This document shows, piece after piece, positions 3,701 to 60,102 of a DNA stretch of 64,000 bases; the stretch's first letter is position 1; the number at the start of each line of letters is the position of its first letter. The translations under genes were made by a program, and so were the position numbers. This DNA is from Ischnura elegans. Its lineage: Eukaryota; Arthropoda; Insecta; Odonata; Coenagrionidae. The stretch covers positions 63,162,069 to 63,226,068 of the forward strand of contig NC_060254.1 of assembly GCF_921293095.1 (NCBI RefSeq), given 5' to 3'. The notes under the pieces were generated by a model. The model made no database searches. It was given only the letters and a program-made list of their open reading frames with translations, and was not told the DNA's origin.

Positions 3701-6700
3701 CCTCGTTGGACGTTTCACTGCGCAAGACGAAAGAACGTTACAAAGCTTTCATCTTGAGCCTCATTTGTATGCAAAATTCATCAGGGTAAGAACATTAGAA
3801 TATCTCAACATGTCATCCTCTTCCAAATATGTGAATTATTTTGTGTGTTAACATTTTTTATTTTGTCCAACAGGTTGAACTGCATTCTCACTATGGGTCA
3901 GAGCATTTTTGCCCGGTATCCCTTTTTCGTGTGTATGGTACAAGTGAATTTGAGGTTTTGGAAACAGAACAGGAAGATGGGGTGAATGGTGTAATAGGAT
4001 CTGGAGACCCTTCAGGTTCTTTGACTGGAGATGATGGGGATGAAGATTCGGATGAAGAAGAACCATTAGGTGAGGGGAGAGATGTTAACTGTTCCCATTT
4101 ATTAGAATTACTCATTATAACATCATCATTTATGATTGAGTTTTTTTTGGTACTTATAGAAGTGAAGGGTGCTGGACATGTTTATTTGTGCTATCATTAG
4201 ATGTACATAATCATTTTTATTATCTTCCTTTATCTGTTTATCTCATGTCGGGGGCCATCATTACCTTATTTTTTATATATATTTTCAGTTGGACTTGTCA
4301 ATATGTTCTTCTTTCATTAAAAATTGCTGTGTCAAATTTATTAACTAGAGGGAAGTTTTAATTTGTGTGAAAATTTGTTATAATTAAGTAGAAATATATA
4401 ATCCATCCAACTCATGATTGTACCATTTATTATAACTTTTTTGTGCTCACCTTCTAATATAAAGTATTGTACTTCAAATGGTGATTTGTAATGTATGGTA
4501 GAGCAGTGGAAATAGGCCTCTTGGCCACAGATGCATAAGGTACCCTATCATGTTGGTTAATTCAATTTTTCAGATATAGAGACCACTGGACCACCTCGTA
4601 ATTTATTTGGAAGTGCCCGTGATGCTGTAATGAGTATTGTGAAGAAAGCTGCGGAAGCATTAGTGAAAGCAGGTAAGCCTTTAAGCAGCCAATTTTTAGC
4701 ATAGATGTACTCTGTAGCATGGAAAAAATGAAGTAATAGTTCTGTGAGTATGACTTCACTCCTCATGCATTAGATGCTTCTTCAAATCTGACTAAATTTA
4801 AATGAGAATGCCACAGCTTCCACGGGCTAAGAGTTTTGCTCTTGATTCATGTTGCATTCAAGTGCTTCAATGTGTATCATAATCTAATGCTTATTCTTTG
4901 GTTTATTTTATCAGGAGATTCAGCTAATGAGACAATCACTTTGGCTACGGAGTCACCGATTAAAGAAGTTCCAAAAAATGAGGCATCTGAACCAACTGCT
5001 GATGGTGAGGAGTCTGAGTCAGCTTTTTCGTCCTCAAGTGGTGGTGCCACTGAATGCAGAACCCTCCGTCGCCCTCCAGTGTGTGTAGGATGCGAAGAGT
5101 CTACAATACTGAGAGCAGCTGCCCTCTTGTCATGTCACTATGACACATTACAGCCCCTCACATCATCTCCTTTTGTTCGATCTGCCCTGGCTTCTGGAGG
5201 CCTTTGCTCAACCCGTTTCGGTCTGCCCCCTTCGGCAGCAAATCCTTCTTCATCCAAACCAGCCACAGACGGGGGCTACATATCTGCTTTGCTCCCAGTT
5301 GAGTATCTTGTGGCCCTCTGCAATGCTCTCATCACACCTGACATGGTGAGAGAATCTGACTCTCCATCCCTGCCAGATCTGCCTCCTATTCAGCCTCCCA
5401 CGCATTCACTCGAGAGCCACACTCAGACTCAATTATCACACCCTCACAAGCATGTTATGGATCCAACAATGGGTGGTGATTCATCGTCATTATCTTCAAT
5501 GATTAAGCCAACAAGGACATTGAAAGGTGATCCAGCCAGGAGCGGAGGGCAAGATGAGAGCATCCTCGAAGCAGGAACACATAATGAAGTATCGGATGGT
5601 GCATTCACTGGCTCTACGACTGTAGAAGTTCCTCAGAGCACATCAATGCCCAGTTTATCAACACTAACATCCAGTTCATCTTTCCACAATGTGGAACAAG
5701 CCAGCGTGTCAAAGGAAGATGCTGTCACAGTTGTAACATTGGAAAGTGCAGCGGCAATGAAACATGAAATCGTCGAGCCATGTAAAGATTGGTCTGAGGA
5801 AAATGAGGCAGGTTTTCAGGAAAGTTTAGAATCAGAAGAGGCAACAGTTGTCCCTCCAGTAACAGAGCCATCGGCTGGGACAGCATCTCCAACTTCGGCA
5901 CCCCCTTCTGCCAGCACTCAGGTCCCTCCATCCTCAGCATCTTCTTCGACTCTTCATTCCTCCAGTGAAGGTCTGCCTTCTCAGGGCACTCAATCCCCTG
6001 GGCCAAAGGGAGCTGAAGATCCAATTGCTCCGCCACCTCCGTCTCCCACCACACCAACACCTCCCTCTCAAGGACATTCCAAAGGCCAGGAGGCGAACAA
6101 CATCCCCAATGCAGCGCCAACTGCAGCCGTTATGCAGAAAGAGTCTGTTTTTGTCAGGCTCTCCAATAGAATAAAAGTGAGTCTTGATGATCTTTGGTGG
6201 TATTATCTCTATTTTTGATTTTGTATTAATTTGGGCATATTTAGCTGAATAATTCAAATCGGGGCCATAAAAATTATTTGTGGAGGTGATTTGATGCATT
6301 GACTGGCACGCCAGTCATAATGACCAGTAATGAAAGTTTCCACCACACCTTGCCATTTATGTTCCCAGCCATGATCCCAGTGGATTTAGTTCATTCTGAC
6401 CCGGTGGGTGATGGGGACCGTTTTTTTGGCACGGTTTTTTTAACCAAAGTGGTCTTTTTGACTGCAGTTTTACAAACCAGCATAAAATTCATTTTAGATA
6501 TTTTACCCTTGCCGGAAATAATAAAAATTTCCTAATTCCACTTTGAGACGGATGCTACCATCTCTTTCAAACTTTACTGTTTTGCCAATTTTGTTAATCC
6601 AATAGAAACTTAGATGCTTCAAGTTATCCTCAAATAAATGCTTCATGAAAGAGATTGGTTTTCACAATTTTATATATTGCTAATAAGTTGGCAATATGTA

Positions 6701-15588: not shown

Positions 15589-15660
15589 AGCCAGGAATTA
15601 AGGCTTTGGGGTGTTTAGGTGCAACTACCCAGCCGGCACAATGTTTTAAATAGAACCAAA
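15589..15660 (+). repeat. Left fragment of a hAT-like MITE family
   Basis: CAGGGGCGCAGCCAGGAATT followed by TAAGG and TTTAGGTGC matches the left end at 32445. The opposite end of the same family is seen near 26338 as CGCTGCGCCACTG. Only a fragment is present. Confidence 0.5.
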
Positions 15661-16226
15661 ATATACGTATAATTTCCGTATAAAACGGAGAAATCATATA
15701 TGTTAAGAGAAATCATATACGTATATCTTAGAGAAAAGTTAGAGAAAAACTAGAGAAATCCAAGAGAAAGATTTCCTAAATACAAGAGAAATCATTTCTC
15801 TAGAAGAATGGGGCGCCGCATAGCGGCCATACAGGGAACTAACGGCGAATTTTTGGGCTCGTCAACGCCATCTAGCGGCCACAACCCGTACCACGGCTAA
15901 TTCAAATCCCGCTTTTCATGAAAATTCATTGCATAACATCAGTCTGCTACTCAATTTCACAAATTAACTCCCATACAAATGAAACTAGATTATGTAGTGT
16001 AATAACACCAGATTAAAATGAAATTAACTCCCACACCAAGAAATCTAGTAGTTTGCTCTGTTAAATAATACCAACCAGAAAATTAGCTGCAGCAATAGAC
16101 TTGTACAGGAATTTACAGACCAACAATTCGATCATATCCCCATCGCTTACTCGTAACATGATAAGGATTCGTCACATTGGGATATTTAAACACAAAATAA
16201 TTTCATAAGTCAGTAATAAATTGTAT

Positions 16227-19200
16227 TTATTGACACACATCTGTGACATTGTAAGGCAATTTTTGTACTCCAGTCCGTGCTCTTGCAAGGCGGAACCATT
16301 CGCCAATACTCCTGCCAACACCAAGGAGTTCCAATTGGGCCCCAGAGTCCCCCTTCGTTTTCAGCACATCTGAAAAAAGGAAGACATTAGCTACTGAATA
16401 TTTCAAGGTAATTAGCAATGCATACAATTCATAACAAATAATATCACTTACCGTAAACCAAATTCAACAACGAGGGGAAGCAGCTCTCGAATGAAACCTT
16501 TTTGGGATTCCTCCCCTTCATGCAGAACTGCATACCCAGGCTGTTAGCAAACAGCAGAGACATAATATCATTCACTGTCCTGTTCACTGCTGTTTGCATG
16601 AATTTTTCAGTGAGATTCCTAAATAGCACGTTTGATGACCTCTCACGCAGGTACTGCACCTAAAATGAAGATATTTCATCATCTTGCAAACCAAGCTACA
16701 GAGAAAATCACAAAAAAACATTTGTATGGCTAAAAATTTCATACCATGAACCTCCTATAAATGCTATTTGAGCATATTTCTTTGTCGAATTCTGTCACCT
16801 CCTGAATAGTCTCCATGGGGAGACTATGCAACAATTCTCCCTCTCCTTCATCCCCCTTACTTGCGATTTGAAGGGAGTCTATTTGTAATCTCAGGGCATT
16901 AATGGCCTCCTTCACCTCCTCAGTTCCCTGTGATATCTGCGCTCTCAACTCCCTCCTGAAGGCATTTCGCATCTCCCTTTTTAAATCTTCTAAGGACTCT
17001 CTGATGAATTCCTTCATTTCTAATTCATGAAAAATACAATGAGAACATATTGAGTATTTCGTTGTTCACTCAACAACGACAAGTGATAAAGATACCTATG
17101 TGCATGAATGGTCAAAAGAGTTGGCCTAAACTTCCACAAGTATAAGTTTAAAAATGGGTAAATACTAATTTCTATCATTCATATATACATACATAAAATA
17201 ATGTCAGCTTTTAGAAATCACATTGGCTAGTACGTTTATAACTCTAGAATGGCTGTACCAATTTTTATTTTTGTTTTTTTTTTAAATTCATCTCTGCCCG
17301 GGATAGCAGAATAAACACTAAAAAATAGTGAAAGAAAAAATAAGTTTTATAAAAATTTTTAATGTGAAAAGTTCGCCTTGCTGCGTCACTGCTTAGCTAC
17401 GCTGTTTTTATTTTTACTTCATCCACTTCATCTTGCACCTGATACAAAACAAGAACTATTTTAGTAGATTGTGCTTGACTGAAATGGTTAATACTGAATG
17501 CGTAGGACACACTGAGGTGCGTTTAAACATGAAGCACGTTTAAGTAGTACATTGCTTCTAAACAGTTACAATAACTGGCTTCCTAGAGGCATTTATTACC
17601 AGATTTTCAGCATCAGTGAAGCATCAGCTTTGCGGCATGTTAACTTGTGCCGTGAGTTTAGATAATCATGGATTACAGAAAATTAGAGAGACTTCAATAC
17701 CTGGAGAAGGCGGATTACTTATCATGTCATCCCTGTCGATATTCATATGAGCCATGCCTGGCCTCCTCACAGGGTTTTTGGTGACTACCTTGGCGGATGA
17801 TTTTATACTTGCCCTGCAAGCCTGAGCATCTACAAAGGAATATAAATGTTTATATAATCATGGATTACAAAAAAAACACTTACATATAGAATATTAGAGA
17901 CACTTCCATACCTGGAGAAGGCGGATTACTTATTATGTCATCCCTGTTGATATTCAAATGAGCCACGCCTGGCCTCCTAACAGGGTTTTTGGTGACTACC
18001 TTGGCGGATGATTTTATGCTTGCCCTGCAAGCCTGAGCATCTAGAAAGGAATATCAATGTTTAGATAATCACGGATTACAAAAAAACACTAACATATAGA
18101 AAATTAGAGAGACTTCAATACCTGGAGAAGGCGGATTACTTATTATGTCATCCCTGTCGATATTCATATGAGCCACGCCTGGCCCCCTCACAGGGTTTTT
18201 GGTGACTACCTTGGCGGATGATGTTATGCTTGCCCTGCAAGCCTGAGCATCTACAAAGGAATATCAATGTTTATATAATCATGGATTACAAAAAACACTA
18301 ACAAATAGAAAATTCGAGACACTTCCATACCTGGAGAAGGCGGATTACTTATTATGTCATCCCTGTCGATATTCATATGAGCCACGCCCGGCCTCCTCAC
18401 AGGGTTTTTGGTGACTACCTTGGCGGATGATTTTATGCTTGCCCTGCAAGCCTGAGCATCTACAAAGGAATATAAATGTTTATATAATCATGGATTACAA
18501 AAAACACTTACATATAGAAAATTAGAGAGACTTCAATACCTGGAGAAGGCGGATTTCTTATTATGTCATCCCTGTCGATATTCATATGAGCCACGCCTGG
18601 CCCCCTCACAGGGTTTTTGGTGACTACCTTGGCGGATGATGTTATGCTTGCCCTGCAAGCCTGAGCATCTACAAAGGAATATCAATGTGTATATAATCAT
18701 GGATTACAAAAAACACTAACAAATAGAAAATTCGAGACACTTCAATACCTGGAGAAGGCGGATAACTTATTATGTCATCCCTGTTGATATTCAAATGAGC
18801 CGCGCCTGGCCTCCTCACAGGGTTTTTGGTGACTACCTTGGCAGATGATTTTATGCTTGCCCTGCAAGCCTGAGCATCTAGAAAGGAATATCAATGTTTA
18901 GATAATCATGGATTACAAAAAACACTAACAAATAGAAAATTAGAGACACTTCCATACCTGGAGAAGGCAGATTACTTATTATGTCATCCCTGTCGATATT
19001 CATATGAGCCGCGCCTGGCCTCCTCACAGGGTTTTTGGTGACTACCTTGGCAGATGATTTTATGCTTGCCCTGCAAGCCTGAGCATCTAGAAAGGAATAT
19101 CAATGTTTAGATAATCATGGATTACAAAAAACACTAACAAATAGAAAATTAGAGACACTTCCATACCTGGAGAAGGCAGATTACTTATTATGTCATCCCT

Positions 19201-20934
19201 GTCGATATTCATATGAGCCACGCCTGGCCTCCTCACAGGGTTTTTGGTGACTACCTTGGCGGATGATGTTATGCTTGCCCTGCAAGCCTGAGCATCTACA
19301 AAGGAATATCAATGTGTATATAATCATGGATTACAAAAAACACTAACAAATAGAAAATTCGAGACACTTCAATACCTGGAGAAGGCGGATAACTTATTAT
19401 GTCATCCCTGTTGATATTCAAATGAGCCGCGCCTGGCCTCCTCACAGGGTTTTTGGTGACTACCTTGGCAGATGATTTTATGCTTGCCCTGCAAGCCTGA
19501 GCATCTAGAAAGGAATATCAATGTTTAGATAATCATGGATTACAAAAAACACTAACAAATAGAAAATTAGAGACACTTCCATACCTGGAGAAGGCAGATT
19601 ACTTATTATGTCATCCCTGTCGATATTCATATGAGCCACGCCTGGCCTCCTCACAGGGTTTTTGGTGACTACCTTGGCGGATGATTTTATGCTTGCCCTG
19701 CAAGCCTGAGCATCTACAAAGGAATATAAATGTTTATATAATCATGGATTACAAAAAACACTTACATATAGAAAATTAGAGAGACTTCAATACCTGGAGA
19801 AGGCGGATTACTTATTATGTCATCCCTGTCGATATTCATATGAGCCACGCCTGGCCCCCTCACAGGGTTTTTGGTGACTACCTTGGCGGATGATGTTATG
19901 CTTGCCCTGCAAGCCTGAGCATCTACAAAGGAATATCAATGTTTATATAATCATGGATTACAAAAAACACTAACAAATAGAAAATTCGAGACACTTCCAT
20001 ACCTGGAGAAGGCGGATTACTTATTATGTCATCCCTGTCGATATTCATATGAGCCACGCCCGGCCCCCTCACAGGGTTTTTGGTGACTACCTTGGCGGAT
20101 GATTTTATGCTTGCCCTGCAAGCCTGAGCATCTAGAAAGGAATATCAATGTTTAGATAATCATGGATTACAAAAAACACTTACATATAGAAAATTAGAGA
20201 CACTTCCATACCTGGAGAAGGCGGATTACTTATTATGTCATCCCTGTTGATATTCAAATGAGCTACGCCTGGCCTCCTCACAGGGTTTTTGGTGACTACC
20301 TTGGCGGATGATTTTATGCTTGCCCTGCAAGCCTGAGCATCTAGAAAGGAATATCAATGTTTAGATGATCATGGATTACAAAAAACACTAACAAATAGAA
20401 AATTATAGAGGCAACAATACCTGGAGGAGAAGGCGGATTACTTATTATGTCATCGCTGTCCATGAACTCTGACTCAGACTGTGGCTCGTTAGGGTATCTA
20501 ATATCTTTAGCAACCCTCTTTCTTTTTCCTCCTGTGCTAGGAAGGGTAGCCACAAAAGTTTCTAGGTCTGTGTCTTCACAATCTGCTACTTTCACCTCTA
20601 ATTGTGTAGCACCAATTATATCATCTGAAATGATAGATGTTGGGATGATATATACAAAGAATAGCTCACAAGTAATCTTATCATTTCATCAAGAAATTCA
20701 CAAACACTAACCAAATGGAGATGTGACATATCTACAAAGAAGCATGTCCCATGACTCAGCTGGTTCCTGCTCCTTTCTTATAAATCTTTGGACCAGAGCA
20801 GGAGGACATTCATTGGGTGGATACAAGACAAACTGAAGTTCAGCTTGCCTTGTAAGCCAGCATAGTGGTACCGTTTGCACAGTAATTCCCTCATACCCTC
20901 GGTGAGGAAAGAATTCCACAACCACCCACGGCAT
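16227..20934 (-). CDS. Transposon-borne DUF4806-like protein with 13 repeated 43-residue exons
   Basis: Read on the minus strand: exon 20934-20712 (starts MPWVVVEFFPHRGYEG), exon 20624-20421, thirteen repeat exons between 20340 and 17701, then 17019-16745, 16659-16452 and 16369-16227 (stop). Phases match throughout and give about 909 residues if all exons are used. The N-terminus (WVVVEF, then VPLCWLTRQ and LYPPNE) fits the start of insect DUF4806 proteins. The C-terminus has a charged helix (KEFIRESLEDLKREMRNAF), then LPMETIQEVTEFD and LGMQFCMKGRNPKKVSFES, which fits DUF4806. A poly(A) signal (AATAAA, minus) lies just downstream at about 16.22 kb. The gene lies directly downstream of the transposase on the same strand, so I take it as the accessory gene of one element. 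Its biochemical role is unknown. Confidence 0.75.
17701..20340 (-). repeat. Tandem array of 13 exon-intron units (about 209 bp each)
   Basis: Plus-strand exon starts are 17701, 17912, 18122, 18331, 18540, 18749, 18958, 19167, 19376, 19585, 19794, 20003 and 20212, each exon 129 bp, period 211, 210, then 209. Every copy has a donor GTATTGAAG or GTATGGAAG, an acceptor TTCCTTTGTAG or TTCCTTTCTAG, phase 1 on both sides, and no stop. Each encodes 43 residues with the core KVVTKNPVRRPG and end DDIISNPPSP. The following long exon (20421-20624) ends in the same DDIISNPPSP and looks like the source. Copies differ by a few substitutions only. Confidence 0.93.
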
Positions 20935-21040
20935 TCTGAAATGACAAAAACCAAATTAATATTATCATAAAAATCACTTAGCTACTGACAACCTTATACT
21001 TACAGCCAAACATAATACAACTTACAATTTATAATACCAT

Positions 21041-23083
21041 TTAACTGTGTAGAATTTCAGCAACATAATATTGGGATGGAGATGAAGAAGATGGAATCAG
21101 CATTGCTTTTCCTCGGACATCGGCAAAATTCCATAATTGACTACCAAGTAAATTACTGGCCACATATATCCCTATATTACAAGAGGGTGCCGGACAATCA
21201 TAAGACAGGGTAACCTTTTCAAAAGCTTTGCCTACTACACAAATGTCCCCATTTCCTGCTGCAATAACATCCACAATGACTATATGCCCACTTTTCATTA
21301 TAATGCAGTTGTTTGGAGCTTTATCGGAGATAACTGCATTCTTGAGAGGATATTGGGAATACTGAGGACCTTCCAGTCCAAATGGCAATTTTCTCAGAAT
21401 CCCCATACACTCCCGAGTCTTGGATGTGGGATGCACACACTGAGAAAAGAATGACTGTTCATGCAGTCGCCGTACTATTTGAGGCAACGGAAGGTTTGGT
21501 TTTCTCACAAGACGTTTTATTTGAGAGAGCTGATTCTCAAATTTGAAGGCACTGAACCTATCTAAGGGTCCATGAACCTTACAATCATCTGCTAAGTGGA
21601 TAAGGCCATGTACATTATACGATAAGCCTTCCTTTCCATAAAGAACTTCAAATTTCCTTACAAAGTACTGCAACAATGCCTTTGCATATTCTAAGTTATT
21701 TGAGTAATCAGCTGAGATAAGAGCTCGAATGGCATAATGCAGAGCCAGAAAGTGCTTGAATGCTGACGATGAAAGAATTCCTTCAAGCAAATATGGACCT
21801 GTGTACACTAGGAATAGCCTCAATTCTGTTGCCTTCCACCTCATGACATCTTGCATTATCCGGGGTTTTCTTGCAAATTCAAAGGGTATATGCCTGACAA
21901 TGGTTAGAATACGCTCATTCACTAATGTCACTTTTCTGGCATGCATCCTAACGTTGAGGCTACCCTTCACCCAAGCCACAAGCAGCTTCTTCATCACTCC
22001 AAGACAGACGAGGTGCATGTACTCATAAGGGAATTGCGTGACCATTTTTGTATCAGGAATATTCAACAAGGGTGAATTGCCAATATGGTGATCTTCATCC
22101 TCCATGCGCGAGAAGCTTTCATCAGTCCTTAATTGAGCATTCATGTCATCAAAAACCACTCTCCTGTTACAATATTCACCTTCCACAGTACATTTTCCAC
22201 ATCCAAAGTACCCTGAGTGAGATTTTATCTGAGCTATGTAGGCACGTGCAGGAGCATCACAGACATAGCAAGTTACAATCACAGGGATGGCCAGGCCATT
22301 AAACTCCACACCCTCCATTTTCAGTCTTGTCATTTCTTCCACATACTCAGCTAAATATTCGGAACATGATTTTGGCTTTTCATTCCCATGATACACACCC
22401 ACAACAAAGGGTGGAATGGAAGGAAAATCTTCTAGGCTCATTAATATGGGCCATACCTGACTGTTTGAACTTTTACTTAGAGGAAGCCCATCAATATTAC
22501 ATTGCAACTTTATTGCACCTGCGTCCAGGATGGAGGGGTTATCTTTCATTAAAGATAGTATCACTTTCTCAATGCCTATATGACAATAAGACCCACCAGC
22601 AATATTTTTTACATTAATTGCACGAGGGGTCTTCAGTAGAGTTCTCGAGTCAGCGGGAACATTCTTGAAACAATGGTGTCCTCTGAGAATACTGAGAATT
22701 TCATTAATTTTAGTAACAGATACACCTTTACTAGCCCATTTAGTTAGCTTCAGGAGGAAATCAACATCACCCTCAGCATTATCTGTCTCGGAAGCATCTG
22801 AGTCAGAGAGATCAGATTCAGACATGTCCGTTTCAGAATCCTCAGCTTCAGAGAAAGTATCAGTACCAGAACCAGGCACACTTTCATTATCCGAGGCAAT
22901 TTCATGATCATCCTCCGGTAAAATATCCATGGGATGAACCTGATGTAAATCATCTTGATGCTCATGAATAACATTTACCATGCCAGGTAAATGGTCTTCT
23001 GCAATAGCATTAGCTTCGGTTGCTCTAAGCTGACGCCTACGCCTCTTACTCAAAGTTACCAAAAGATGCCTTCTGTTTATCAT
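21041..23083 (-). CDS. CACTA/EnSpm-like (Tnp2-type) DDE transposase, apparently intact
   Basis: A single 680-residue open frame. Residues 1-60 are basic then acidic, 73-104 are Ser/Asp/Glu-rich. The core has the animal EnSpm-like pattern: CNIDGLPLS with a candidate catalytic Asp at about 198, YVCDAPARAYI with Asp at about 276, a zinc-binding-like HSGYFGCGKCTVEGEYC segment, the FPYEYMHLVCLGVMKKLL block, and FENQLSQIKRLVR with a candidate catalytic Glu at about 516. These would move the element by cut and paste. Absence of stops over 2 kb and preserved motifs suggest recent or current activity. The start ATG is the first in frame after a stretch with stops. It may have 5' untranslated exons, one ending at a donor near 24795. 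Confidence 0.82.
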   Translation of the reverse strand: MINRRHLLVTLSKRRRRQLRATEANAIAEDHLPGMVNVIHEHQDDLHQVHPMDILPEDDHEIASDNESVPGSGTDTFSEAEDSETDMSESDLSDSDASETDNAEGDVDFLLKLTKWASKGVSVTKINEILSILRGHHCFKNVPADSRTLLKTPRAINVKNIAGGSYCHIGIEKVILSLMKDNPSILDAGAIKLQCNIDGLPLSKSSNSQVWPILMSLEDFPSIPPFVVGVYHGNEKPKSCSEYLAEYVEEMTRLKMEGVEFNGLAIPVIVTCYVCDAPARAYIAQIKSHSGYFGCGKCTVEGEYCNRRVVFDDMNAQLRTDESFSRMEDEDHHIGNSPLLNIPDTKMVTQFPYEYMHLVCLGVMKKLLVAWVKGSLNVRMHARKVTLVNERILTIVRHIPFEFARKPRIMQDVMRWKATELRLFLVYTGPYLLEGILSSSAFKHFLALHYAIRALISADYSNNLEYAKALLQYFVRKFEVLYGKEGLSYNVHGLIHLADDCKVHGPLDRFSAFKFENQLSQIKRLVRKPNLPLPQIVRRLHEQSFFSQCVHPTSKTRECMGILRKLPFGLEGPQYSQYPLKNAVISDKAPNNCIIMKSGHIVIVDVIAAGNGDICVVGKAFEKVTLSYDCPAPSCNIGIYVASNLLGSQLWNFADVRGKAMLIPSSSSPSQYYVAEILHS

Positions 23084-23875
23084 TTCAGATAAGCAGAATA
23101 CAGAGATATATAAAGCCAGTAAAATACCTAATTTGACCCTCTGTTGCAGATCAGCCTAACAATAAAAAAAAGCCAATTTTTTAATCGACATTTCATAAGG
23201 ATTGTAAGCAAATTTATCTGTATATAAAAATAATACAGGTAGTATACTTATTTTAGTGATCTGGAAGGAAGAGTTTGAATGTCGCGTTTTTCCTATTACT
23301 TCAGTATTGAGACCAGTATAGCATTCTTTTGCATTTTATATCAAATTTCTGCAAATACACATCATAACAGTTTTAACAGGAATAAGTTCATATTTGTGAG
23401 GCATATCTACTAAATCAAAAGAATTACATATTAATTAATTAATGATGATAAGGAACTATGAAAACTGACTGTGCATCAAATATCACCGGTAATTACTGCT
23501 CTAAACTGAACGGAGAGGACTTCAAGCTAGTTTTCAGCGCACTGGCAGAAGATGATTGGGATAGCAAAGGAAGAATAAGCAACTAATTGGGGGTTCAATA
23601 ATCGTTATAACTTCATACATGAACTAATTTATATTGCTCATCCCCATAGCTAATAAAATTGTTTTTACTTCCGCATCCACAGTTTAACTGCAATACTGAG
23701 GAAAGACTAGACGGGGCTAGTAGGAATGCTTCAGCAATGGTGAGGGACAATAGGCTCGATAGTCACGGTTATGGCCAGTGCTTACTTTCTAGCAAATAAG
23801 GTTAGAGAACACATTATACATATGATTATCAGGTACAAGCCCCTGACTACACCTCAGATTTTGCAATAGTTGAAA

Positions 23876-24760
23876 TAAATTCCGGCATTATATTTTTTCA
23901 TTGCAATAACGGCACATTTAAATAATAGAGATAGGCATTGCAATACAATGCAAAACAATTTAGCAGCGAATAAAGATTGGGTTTTGGATAGAGTATGACA
24001 AAACGATAATTTATCCCTTAAGCACCGATCCCGACATTGTATATTTGCATTGAAATAACGGCACAACCAAAATTATTGAGATGTGCAATACCAATATAAA
24101 CTTAAATATTTAAGCAGCGATAATTTGCCACGGAGCACTAATACCGGCATTAAAATTTTAGATTGTGTTAACGGCACAACATTAATTAACGAGATATGCA
24201 TTACCGATATAAACCAAATAAATGTATCAACGAATGAAATGCTATTGCTTTAAGGGAGAGTACATTGACACGACATTGTATCACAAAGCACTGATTCCGA
24301 CATTATATTTTTGCATTAAAATTAACCGCACATCATGATTTACAGAGATATGTATCACAAAGACAACCAAATAAATGTATCCGCGAGCAAACTAAGGGAG
24401 AGAACATGAACACGATATTTAAATACACAGCGCTCTGATTCCGGCATTATATTTTCGAATTGAATTAACGGCAAACATGAAGTAAAGAGATATGCCTCAC
24501 CAATATAATCCAAATCGAATTGGCAGCAAATAAAATGCAATTGTTTTAAGGGAGAGTTGAGACGACATTGTAGCACACAGCGCCGATTCCGGCATATCTT
24601 TTTTGCATCGAATTAACGCCACAACATAAATTAAAGAGATTAGCATTACCAATATAAACCAAAACGATTTAGCATCGAATTAAATGCAGTTGCTTTACGG
24701 GAGAGTACATTAATACGATATTTATCACATGGCGTGCTCAGCTATACCACGTGAGTACTT
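23876..24760. repeat. Degenerate tandem repeats upstream of the transposase
   Basis: The phrase CATTATATTTTT..GCATTGAATTAACGG and the following AGAGATATGCATTACC AATATAAACC recur about six times (near 23884, 24032, 24152, 24299, 24443 and 24592), spaced about 120-150 bases. They are diverged from one another. Arrays like this near the ends of CACTA-type elements often bind element proteins; that function is inferred here. Confidence 0.6.
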
Positions 24761-25166
24761 CATGCACAAGTTAAGATAATAGAAATTAAGTTACCTTCGA
24801 GAATCCTTGTTTAACGACGATTACACTTCCTTCGGTACAGCGTGTGAAGAAATATTCTTCTGATGAGGCGAGATGGCCGTGGATTCTCACCGATTACCTT
24901 CTACTTCACAGCGTTGAGTATTCACGCGCACAGGATGTGCTCATGCACCGGCGTGGTGAAATAGATGGAATGAAATGGCGATGACGAAAAATGAATTGAT
25001 GAATGGAAGATATGATTCCACAATGAAATGAGCGAAAGATGGAAAATGAAAGATGCGATAATAACGTTGACTGTGCAAAGCACGGAAATCACTCTCGAGG
25101 AACGCAGGAGAAGGCAAGCCAAGCACCAGGTTGAACACGAAGTCACCGAGGATGAGCGAAGTTGAG

Positions 25167-25181
25167 GAATATATAGAACTA
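25167..25181 (-). promoter_or_regulatory. TATA-like promoter of the transposon genes
   Basis: On the minus strand the sequence reads AGTTCTATATATTCC. It lies upstream of a GC-richer stretch with a candidate 5' exon that ends at a GTAACTT donor near 24794. Direction fits the transposase. Confidence 0.4.
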
Positions 25182-25617
25182 TCAGATTCCAAAGTGCTAG
25201 TTTTCTCCAATAGATGGCTACCAAAGATGTTTAATAATATGGCGAATGTGCGCAGGAGGCCATGGCGCAGTGTAATAAGTTAAAAATCGTTAAAAATTAT
25301 AATCAACTATGAAAAAATAACGGCATTATAAATGGAATTATAGTTAGAAAATAAATCGTAGTATAAAATTATTATTACTGGAGTATTTGTTCAAGAATGT
25401 AAATGGCGATGGTGACTTCATACTTCCGTAATTCAACTAAATTTATACTACTTTATGAAAATACACTAGTGATAATTCATCTTTAATACAGCTCTATGAA
25501 TACATATGCATAATTGGTGTGCATTCTTACAGCTGTACGTATTACATAAGTATTATTTCTACTTGTAAAAATACGAATATTTTACATGCGATACGGCTGT
25601 ATAAATACATATGTATT

Positions 25618-26025
25618 TCTGAATGGTGGAACAAAAACATGAATTATTTCTTCACCTGCGTCAGCCATTAGCAGAATATGGTTTACGAGTAATTTCACTC
25701 CATTATTAGCGCTATAGCCGTAATTACGAGATTATTATTTAAATAATCTCGTGGGCTCTCTGCGAACAGAAAAGATAGGGAAATTCCTACCCTGTGATTT
25801 CTCTATGGATCCACTTCGAGAATTTTAAATGGTTGATTGCATGCTATTATAGTTTTTCGAATGGTGGAACAAAAACATGAATTAGTTATCCATCTGCGTC
25901 AGCCCTTTGAATATGATTTACAAGTAATTTCACTGCACTGTTAGCGCTAGAGCCGTAAATAATCTTGTGGGCTCTCTGCGAACAGAAAAGATAGGGAAAT
26001 TCCTACCCTGTGATTTCTCTACAGA
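25618..26025. repeat. Direct repeat of about 170-190 bp
   Basis: The stretch from GAATGGTGGAACAAAAACAT to CCTACCCTGTGATTTCTCTA occurs at about 25618-25803 and again at about 25858-26021. The first copy contains the palindrome CGAGATTATTATTTAAATAA with its reverse half (25727-25751), which the second copy has lost. No coding content. Confidence 0.7.
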
Positions 26026-26059
26026 TATATTTTCTCCATTTTTTCTCTTCCATTTATGT

Positions 26060-26345
26060 AAAGAATTTCTGCTGTGCCGGCTGGGTAACACTGGGGTGTG
26101 TGAGGGTACGGTATACCCACCAGGATAAGCGGTAGGTGCGAGATTAATAAATTGCGGAATTTTAAAGAAATGGTTCAAAATGGTGAGCTTTACGGCTTTC
26201 TGAGGGATACTTTATTCATCCTTACACTATTCTATAAGTCACAGCAATCCAATTATGTGAAATGGATTAAACTTAAAAATTTCTCTGAGGTCTGGGGGGG
26301 GGTTTATCCCCCTAAACCCTCCTCTCGCTGCGCCACTGGCCCCTA
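26060..26345 (+). repeat. hAT-like MITE family, right part
   Basis: The segment with TATACCCACCAGGATAAGCGG through AATTTCTCTGAGGTCTGG is repeated at 32510-32705. This copy keeps the right end (CGCTGCGCCACTGG), the other keeps the left end (CAGGGGCGAAGCCAGG). Confidence 0.55.

Positions 26346-27749: not shown

Positions 27750-60102
<32,353 letters not shown>

Follow-up and report, generated by a model that had tools for sequence, protein, structure and literature searches.

Several described systems come close to the locus reported here, as excerpts of the cited sources present them. In spider silk genes, including the flagelliform gene and Argiope MaSp2, near-identical units of exon plus intron stand in tandem with homogenised introns (PMC9779670). 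Unequal crossing-over has been proposed for these genes, some of which have alternating intron types (PMC9779670). Dscam carries tandem arrays of homologous exons that undergo mutually exclusive splicing (PMC1397879, PMC9013439). In the DNA transposon Tetris, units of ~220 bases, termed TIR-220, have been amplified to variable number, and a 37-base stretch shared with a neighbouring segment was read as pointing to an origin through partial duplication (PMC4079207). Finally, SmTRC1 and other animal CACTA-related (TRC) transposons have terminal repeats starting with CCC (CCCAGTCAAC in a 9.2-kb Aedes element), a 2-base flanking direct repeat, and a transposase frame with further 3' exons coding for other proteins. 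Alternative splicing has been shown for SmTRC1, which also contains a tandem-repeat region (PMC1636069).

The window, by which we mean the whole 64,000-nucleotide stretch of Ischnura elegans DNA that was analysed, holds a CACTA-like element with a 13-unit exon array in its second gene. Its features are:

15628 to 26085, minus strand: CACTA-like element of 10,458 bases, with inverted repeats CCCAGCCGGCACA and TA on either side; homology with copy L008 starts at 15628
24425 to 24706, no strand assigned: 149-base tandem repeat, 1.9 copies (TRF), within the element toward its 5' end
21041 to 23083, minus strand: transposase-like open frame of 680 aa, the first gene; DUF4218 match under the Pfam cut-off
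20712 to 20934, minus strand: first coding exon in the second gene (MPWVVVEF...), with a splice acceptor ahead of it
20421 to 20624, minus strand: long exon, phase 1/1, ending DDIISNPPSPP, donor GTATTG
17701 to 20340, minus strand: 13-unit array of head-to-tail 129-base exons with introns of 80-82 bases
20340, 20131, 19922, 19713, 19504, 19295, 19086, minus strand: exon starts of array units 1-7
18877, 18668, 18459, 18250, 18040, 17829, minus strand: exon starts of array units 8-13
16745 to 17019, minus strand: exon following the array, phase 1 to 0
16452 to 16659, minus strand: exon holding a large part of the DUF4806-like region (E 0.00049; 20.8 bits against a cut-off of 25)
16227 to 16369, minus strand: last exon of the second gene, carrying the stop codon

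The terminal inverted repeats are perfect over 13 bases (CCCAGCCGGCACA, at 15628 and 26085) and begin with CCC at both ends, as in the excerpted description of TRC elements (PMC1636069). TA lies on either side of the window copy; copy L008 has TT before its left end, the only end read. Pfam Transposase_21 gave no match in the window's transposase-like frame at E up to 1 or in five relatives at E up to 0.1, and the strict motif I, as printed in the excerpted text of PMC1636069, occurs in none of the 13 loci tested (the window's own and 12 related ones). In the window's frame, DGLPLSKSSNSQVWPI has the DG...WPI core but lacks the F/Y. As neither a Pfam Transposase_21 match nor the strict motif I was found, we name the element CACTA-like and do not file it as a TRC member. 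The array does not lie within the transposase, a placement that we considered and rejected; it sits in the second gene, and the transposase-like frame is a separate upstream frame (23083-21041). When 20934-20712, 20624-20421, the 13 units, 17019-16745, 16659-16452 and 16369-16227 are joined, the resulting frame of 2730 bases stays open and encodes 909 aa plus a stop; joins with 1 or 0 array units are open as well. The C-terminal exons match Pfam PF16064 (DUF4806) below the cut-off (20.8 bits against 25, E 0.00049), so we call this gene DUF4806-like only. A splice acceptor stands ahead of the second-gene start in the window copy and in all five relatives read (L033, L035, L038, L040 and L047), although in L047 there is no ATG at this start.

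Other features of the window lie outside the element. Two long open frames on the plus strand, at 27750-28511 and 34082-34936, are 92% identical over 254 residues and both match FERM F1, which marks a duplicated FERM-domain coding piece. A frame with a clear match to Coa1, cytochrome oxidase assembly protein 1, lies between the copies (33218-33640, minus strand). Matches to Copia-type gag at 29427-29885 and to an endonuclease/reverse-transcriptase type (Exo_endo_phos) at 48182-48760, both on the minus strand, are probably retroelement remnants.

The array clearly exceeds chance expectation: TRF reports one tandem array at 17677-20460, with a period of 209, 13.3 copies and 94% matches. Reading all 13 exons, we found the coordinates, lengths, phase and peptide of the original prediction to be correct. 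Each exon is 129 bases long, in phase 1/1, with AG before it and GT after it (13/13), as expected from the splice-competent borders and phase symmetry that had been claimed. All 13 are stop-free in the phase-1 frame, where each encodes 43 residues, including the codon split across the intron, and they are 94-100% alike over the exon length. The tail said to be common to the units and the preceding long exon is indeed shared, with units ending in DDIISNPPSP or a one- or two-letter variant and the long exon in DDIISNPPSPP. The basic, Pro-ending repeats carry a net charge of +1 to +4 per unit and would, if all were used, add the predicted 13 x 43 = 559 residues, for which we compute a net charge of +36. 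Any number of units keeps the frame, because the exon has 129 bases and is in phase 1/1. The intron after unit 1, if retained, would introduce a stop after ten intron-coded residues. Donors read GTATGG in seven units and GTATTG in six, and since they differ we predict that inclusion may differ between units. Within the array introns (window 17695-20420), these donors and the TTCTAG/TTGTAG acceptor variants are shuffled non-periodically among units, as exchange between units would lead one to expect. Although tandem arrays are easily mis-assembled, an assembly artefact is very improbable here: distinct unit variants occur in non-periodic order, units 5 and 8 are the only exact duplicates in 66 pairwise comparisons of monomers, 2.7 kb would be short for long-read assembly, and contigs in this genome reach about 170 Mb.

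When the array region was used as a DNA query, the same genome yielded five further places, L008 to L012, with zero to two units each. L008 has one unit; L009 has one of 134 bases, out of phase and followed by a second intron copy; L010 has none, its deletion running from the intron into downstream sequence; L011 has two, of which the first listed here has 128 bases and is out of phase, while the other has 132 bases and a lost donor; and L012 also has two, a truncated unit and a 124-base unit that contains stops. In L011, a frame unlike the element (4300-4602) reaches a CAG/GTATGG border directly before the first unit and may be a fusion at the truncation point. Searching the 1.72-Gb genome with a single unit returned the window array and at least four other places, and no second array; these counts are lower bounds, very common words having been skipped. 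On the same lower-bound counts, we reject a dispersed satellite, as all single-unit matches lie in copies or remnants of the element. With zero to two units at the five other places, the in-phase exon is inherited, and only its amplification is special to the window copy among the places found.

Several observations bear on how the array arose. First, its 13 units form one group apart from the five outside units, with a tree support of 0.972 (the L009 piece in this tree ended three bases short of the exon end and the L012 piece started two bases early), which points to one founder. Second, a search for exact runs of at least 230 bases within the array found a repeat of 407 bases that pairs units 4-6 with units 7-9 (a shift of 3 units), one of 302 bases that pairs units 2-3 with units 10-11 (8 units), and one of 264 bases that pairs units 4-5 with units 6-7 (2 units). 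We read them as multi-unit duplications or exchanges. Third, pairwise divergence within the array averages 4.2% and peaks at 6.7% (66 pairs from 12 of the 13 monomers, as the last has no full intron), whereas the window copy and L008 differ by 8.1% and 9.0% in two non-coding stretches. The lower divergence within the array places its diversification, or its homogenisation, after the split from L008. Finally, even with one unit, L008 has exon tail plus intron twice in direct orientation, the two copies being identical at 87 of 110 aligned bases. The original prediction had the 3' end and intron of the long exon seed the array; the tail is shared, but the whole unit exon occurs once or twice in array-less copies. 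We therefore reject the idea that the 3' end of the long exon by itself gave rise to the unit in the window copy; at most, the tails of the long exon and the units have exchanged sequence. Given the two-unit copies L011 and L012, the ancestral number of units may be two, not one.

We propose that a phase-symmetric linker exon, already present in the transposon's second gene, was multiplied in the window copy of this CACTA-like element. Judging from the anatomy of the locus, misaligned recombination or slippage between repeats of exon tail plus an intron of ~80 bases probably added units. For example, misalignment of two tail-plus-intron copies of the L008 type would yield a gain of exactly one exon and one intron. 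Since what is repeated is exon tail together with intron, every such event would add a complete exon with its acceptor, donor and frame, and no selection would be needed to keep the array in phase. If the gene is transcribed, some or all units could be spliced in, so that the basic, probably disordered linker joining the N-terminal part to the DUF4806-like C-terminus would become longer, a lengthening that would be tolerated, not selected. This amplification of an inherited in-phase linker exon, specific to the window copy and tolerated if spliced, is the account that we favour, with moderate confidence.

The openness of all 13 copies had been taken as more than chance would allow in a neutral satellite. 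The stop risk per mutation in an array exon is 1.3-1.8%, however, and an array without selection would be expected to show no stop with a probability of 0.76-0.82, so that we reject selection as deduced from openness. Variable sites number 15 of 129 in the array exons (10 non-synonymous and 5 synonymous) and 11 of 80 by substitution in the introns, where a run of T also changes length twice; the intron count begins after the first unit, and variable sites give the least number of mutations, as exchange between units could hide more. Site densities in exons and introns are alike (Fisher p=0.67). The comparison of synonymous with non-synonymous change that had been suggested as a check accords with neutrality: 10 N to 5 S is near the neutral 73-77% N (p=0.26-0.38), with no synonymous excess, and 26 substitutions spare the four GT/AG bases ~60% of the time. 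Twelve differences are fixed between the array and the L008 unit, three of them synonymous. Against L008, L009 and L011, dN/dS of the unit is 0.66-0.68, indistinguishable from 1 (Fisher p 0.48-0.64), and other exons of the second gene give 0.22 to 0.91 against L008 and 0.22 to 0.39 against L009. Neutrality is thus not rejected, and weak selection would also be compatible with such small mutation counts.

Could the array instead be a passenger, with its exons skipped or their inclusion ruining the second protein, in a copy on its way to decay like its relatives? We consider this an unlikely, though serious, alternative. Each of the five further places found is either broken or partial, and six of the 13 units have the GTATTG donor, without G at +5. 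On the window copy's branch, exons before the array show N 4 and S 6, and those after it N 12 and S 4; a genuine relaxation downstream would be a hint that the gene is harmed by the array and does not tolerate it, but the difference is not significant (p=0.11). The open transposase frame is weak evidence of recent function, with a 22% chance of no stop after 41 branch substitutions (indels not counted). Branch assignment of non-coding differences is poor, all 53 being ambiguous in the 3' stretch; in the intron before the 17019 exon, 22 fall to the window copy and 6 to L008, and 22 are ambiguous. By contrast, exons before, within and after the array are all open with standard splice borders, which speaks against the passenger reading. 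Broken units in other copies had been named in advance as grounds against functional exons, and four of the five untruncated units outside the array are indeed broken, only one being open, in phase and with standard borders. Their hosts, however, are decayed in the transposase too: four of the five (L008, L009, L010 and L012) have stops and indels in their transposase stretches, and L011 has almost none left, with only 129 bases aligned. The breakage therefore says little about selection in a copy that is intact.

More distant relatives bear on whether repeat number has a function. A transposase protein query gave at least 70 matches in the element's own genome (65 of 828 candidates scored). 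We examined 29 loci, L033-L061, two of which are copies already described (L046 is L010 and L053 is L008), leaving 27. In 18 of these, the second gene's first coding exon and long exon were both recognised downstream of the transposase; in the other nine, one or both went unrecognised. All four relatives read for it (L033, L035, L038 and L047) have the ISNPPSP tail of the long exon or a variant. The linker in related elements differs from that of the window copy; by eye, its charge is +15 of 164 residues in L035, +8 of 81 in L038 and weakly +2 of 62 in L033. In L035, the linker region (3958-4920) has short internal repeats of another kind (KRSMLPKPSVTKSSGLN / KGNMLPEMRMSKNPGVN), seen by eye, and these suggest linker lengthening by a different route.

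The original prediction saw in the array an adaptive, expandable domain, whose repeat number tunes a multivalent DNA- or protein-binding linker. All 13 units are open and basic (net +36), the linkers of L035 and L038, and weakly that of L033, are basic, and unit number differs among copies. The array nevertheless has no synonymous excess, its openness is expected by chance, and the unit dN/dS of about 0.67 is not significantly below 1. Moreover, TRF found no array with a period near 209 in the 29 loci, over ~530-940 bases beyond the long exon, and hence no comparable one in these stretches of the 27 related loci, with the gene recognised in 18. We regard such an adaptive role as improbable. 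A more general idea, also improbable, is that transposons of this kind carry an exon-multiplying device, in which a repeated stretch of intron plus tail would let unequal exchange add or remove whole in-phase exons. Linker length would then vary between copies and be explored as the element spreads, and longer, more basic forms would bind DNA or partners more strongly.

Amplification followed by tolerance has broader implications. It would be a clean natural case of an exon that multiplies without breaking its gene once exon tail and intron have been duplicated. It also illustrates that frames still intact in an array this young argue only weakly for selection. Should the exons be used, the product would be a transposon protein whose repeat number varies from copy to copy, of a kind that we did not find described among the matches listed. 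The 13 units are adjacent homologous exons with their own introns in one gene, and so have the genomic anatomy of a tandem exon duplication. In the literature searched, through titles and the starts of abstracts among the matches listed, we found no description of a tandem exon array in a transposon gene; on these excerpts, tandem exon arrays are known and transposon-internal arrays are known, and the combination was not found described. As far as the excerpted accounts go, the window element resembles TRC transposons in its CCC termini, transposase with a 3' second gene and tandem-repeat region, and perhaps in its 2-base flank, although the SmTRC1 repeat, unlike the window array, is not described there as repeated exons (PMC1636069). 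TIR-220 lies in the terminal repeats of a foldback element and has spread as a satellite (PMC4079207), whereas the window unit is a complete exon found only in copies or remnants of its element. Dscam exons are picked one at a time (PMC1397879, PMC9013439), whereas the window exons are 94-100% alike and any number of them keeps the frame. Spider silk genes share with the window array the tandem exon-intron unit, but the silk arrays belong to host structural genes (PMC9779670), and the array described here belongs to one copy of a transposon gene.
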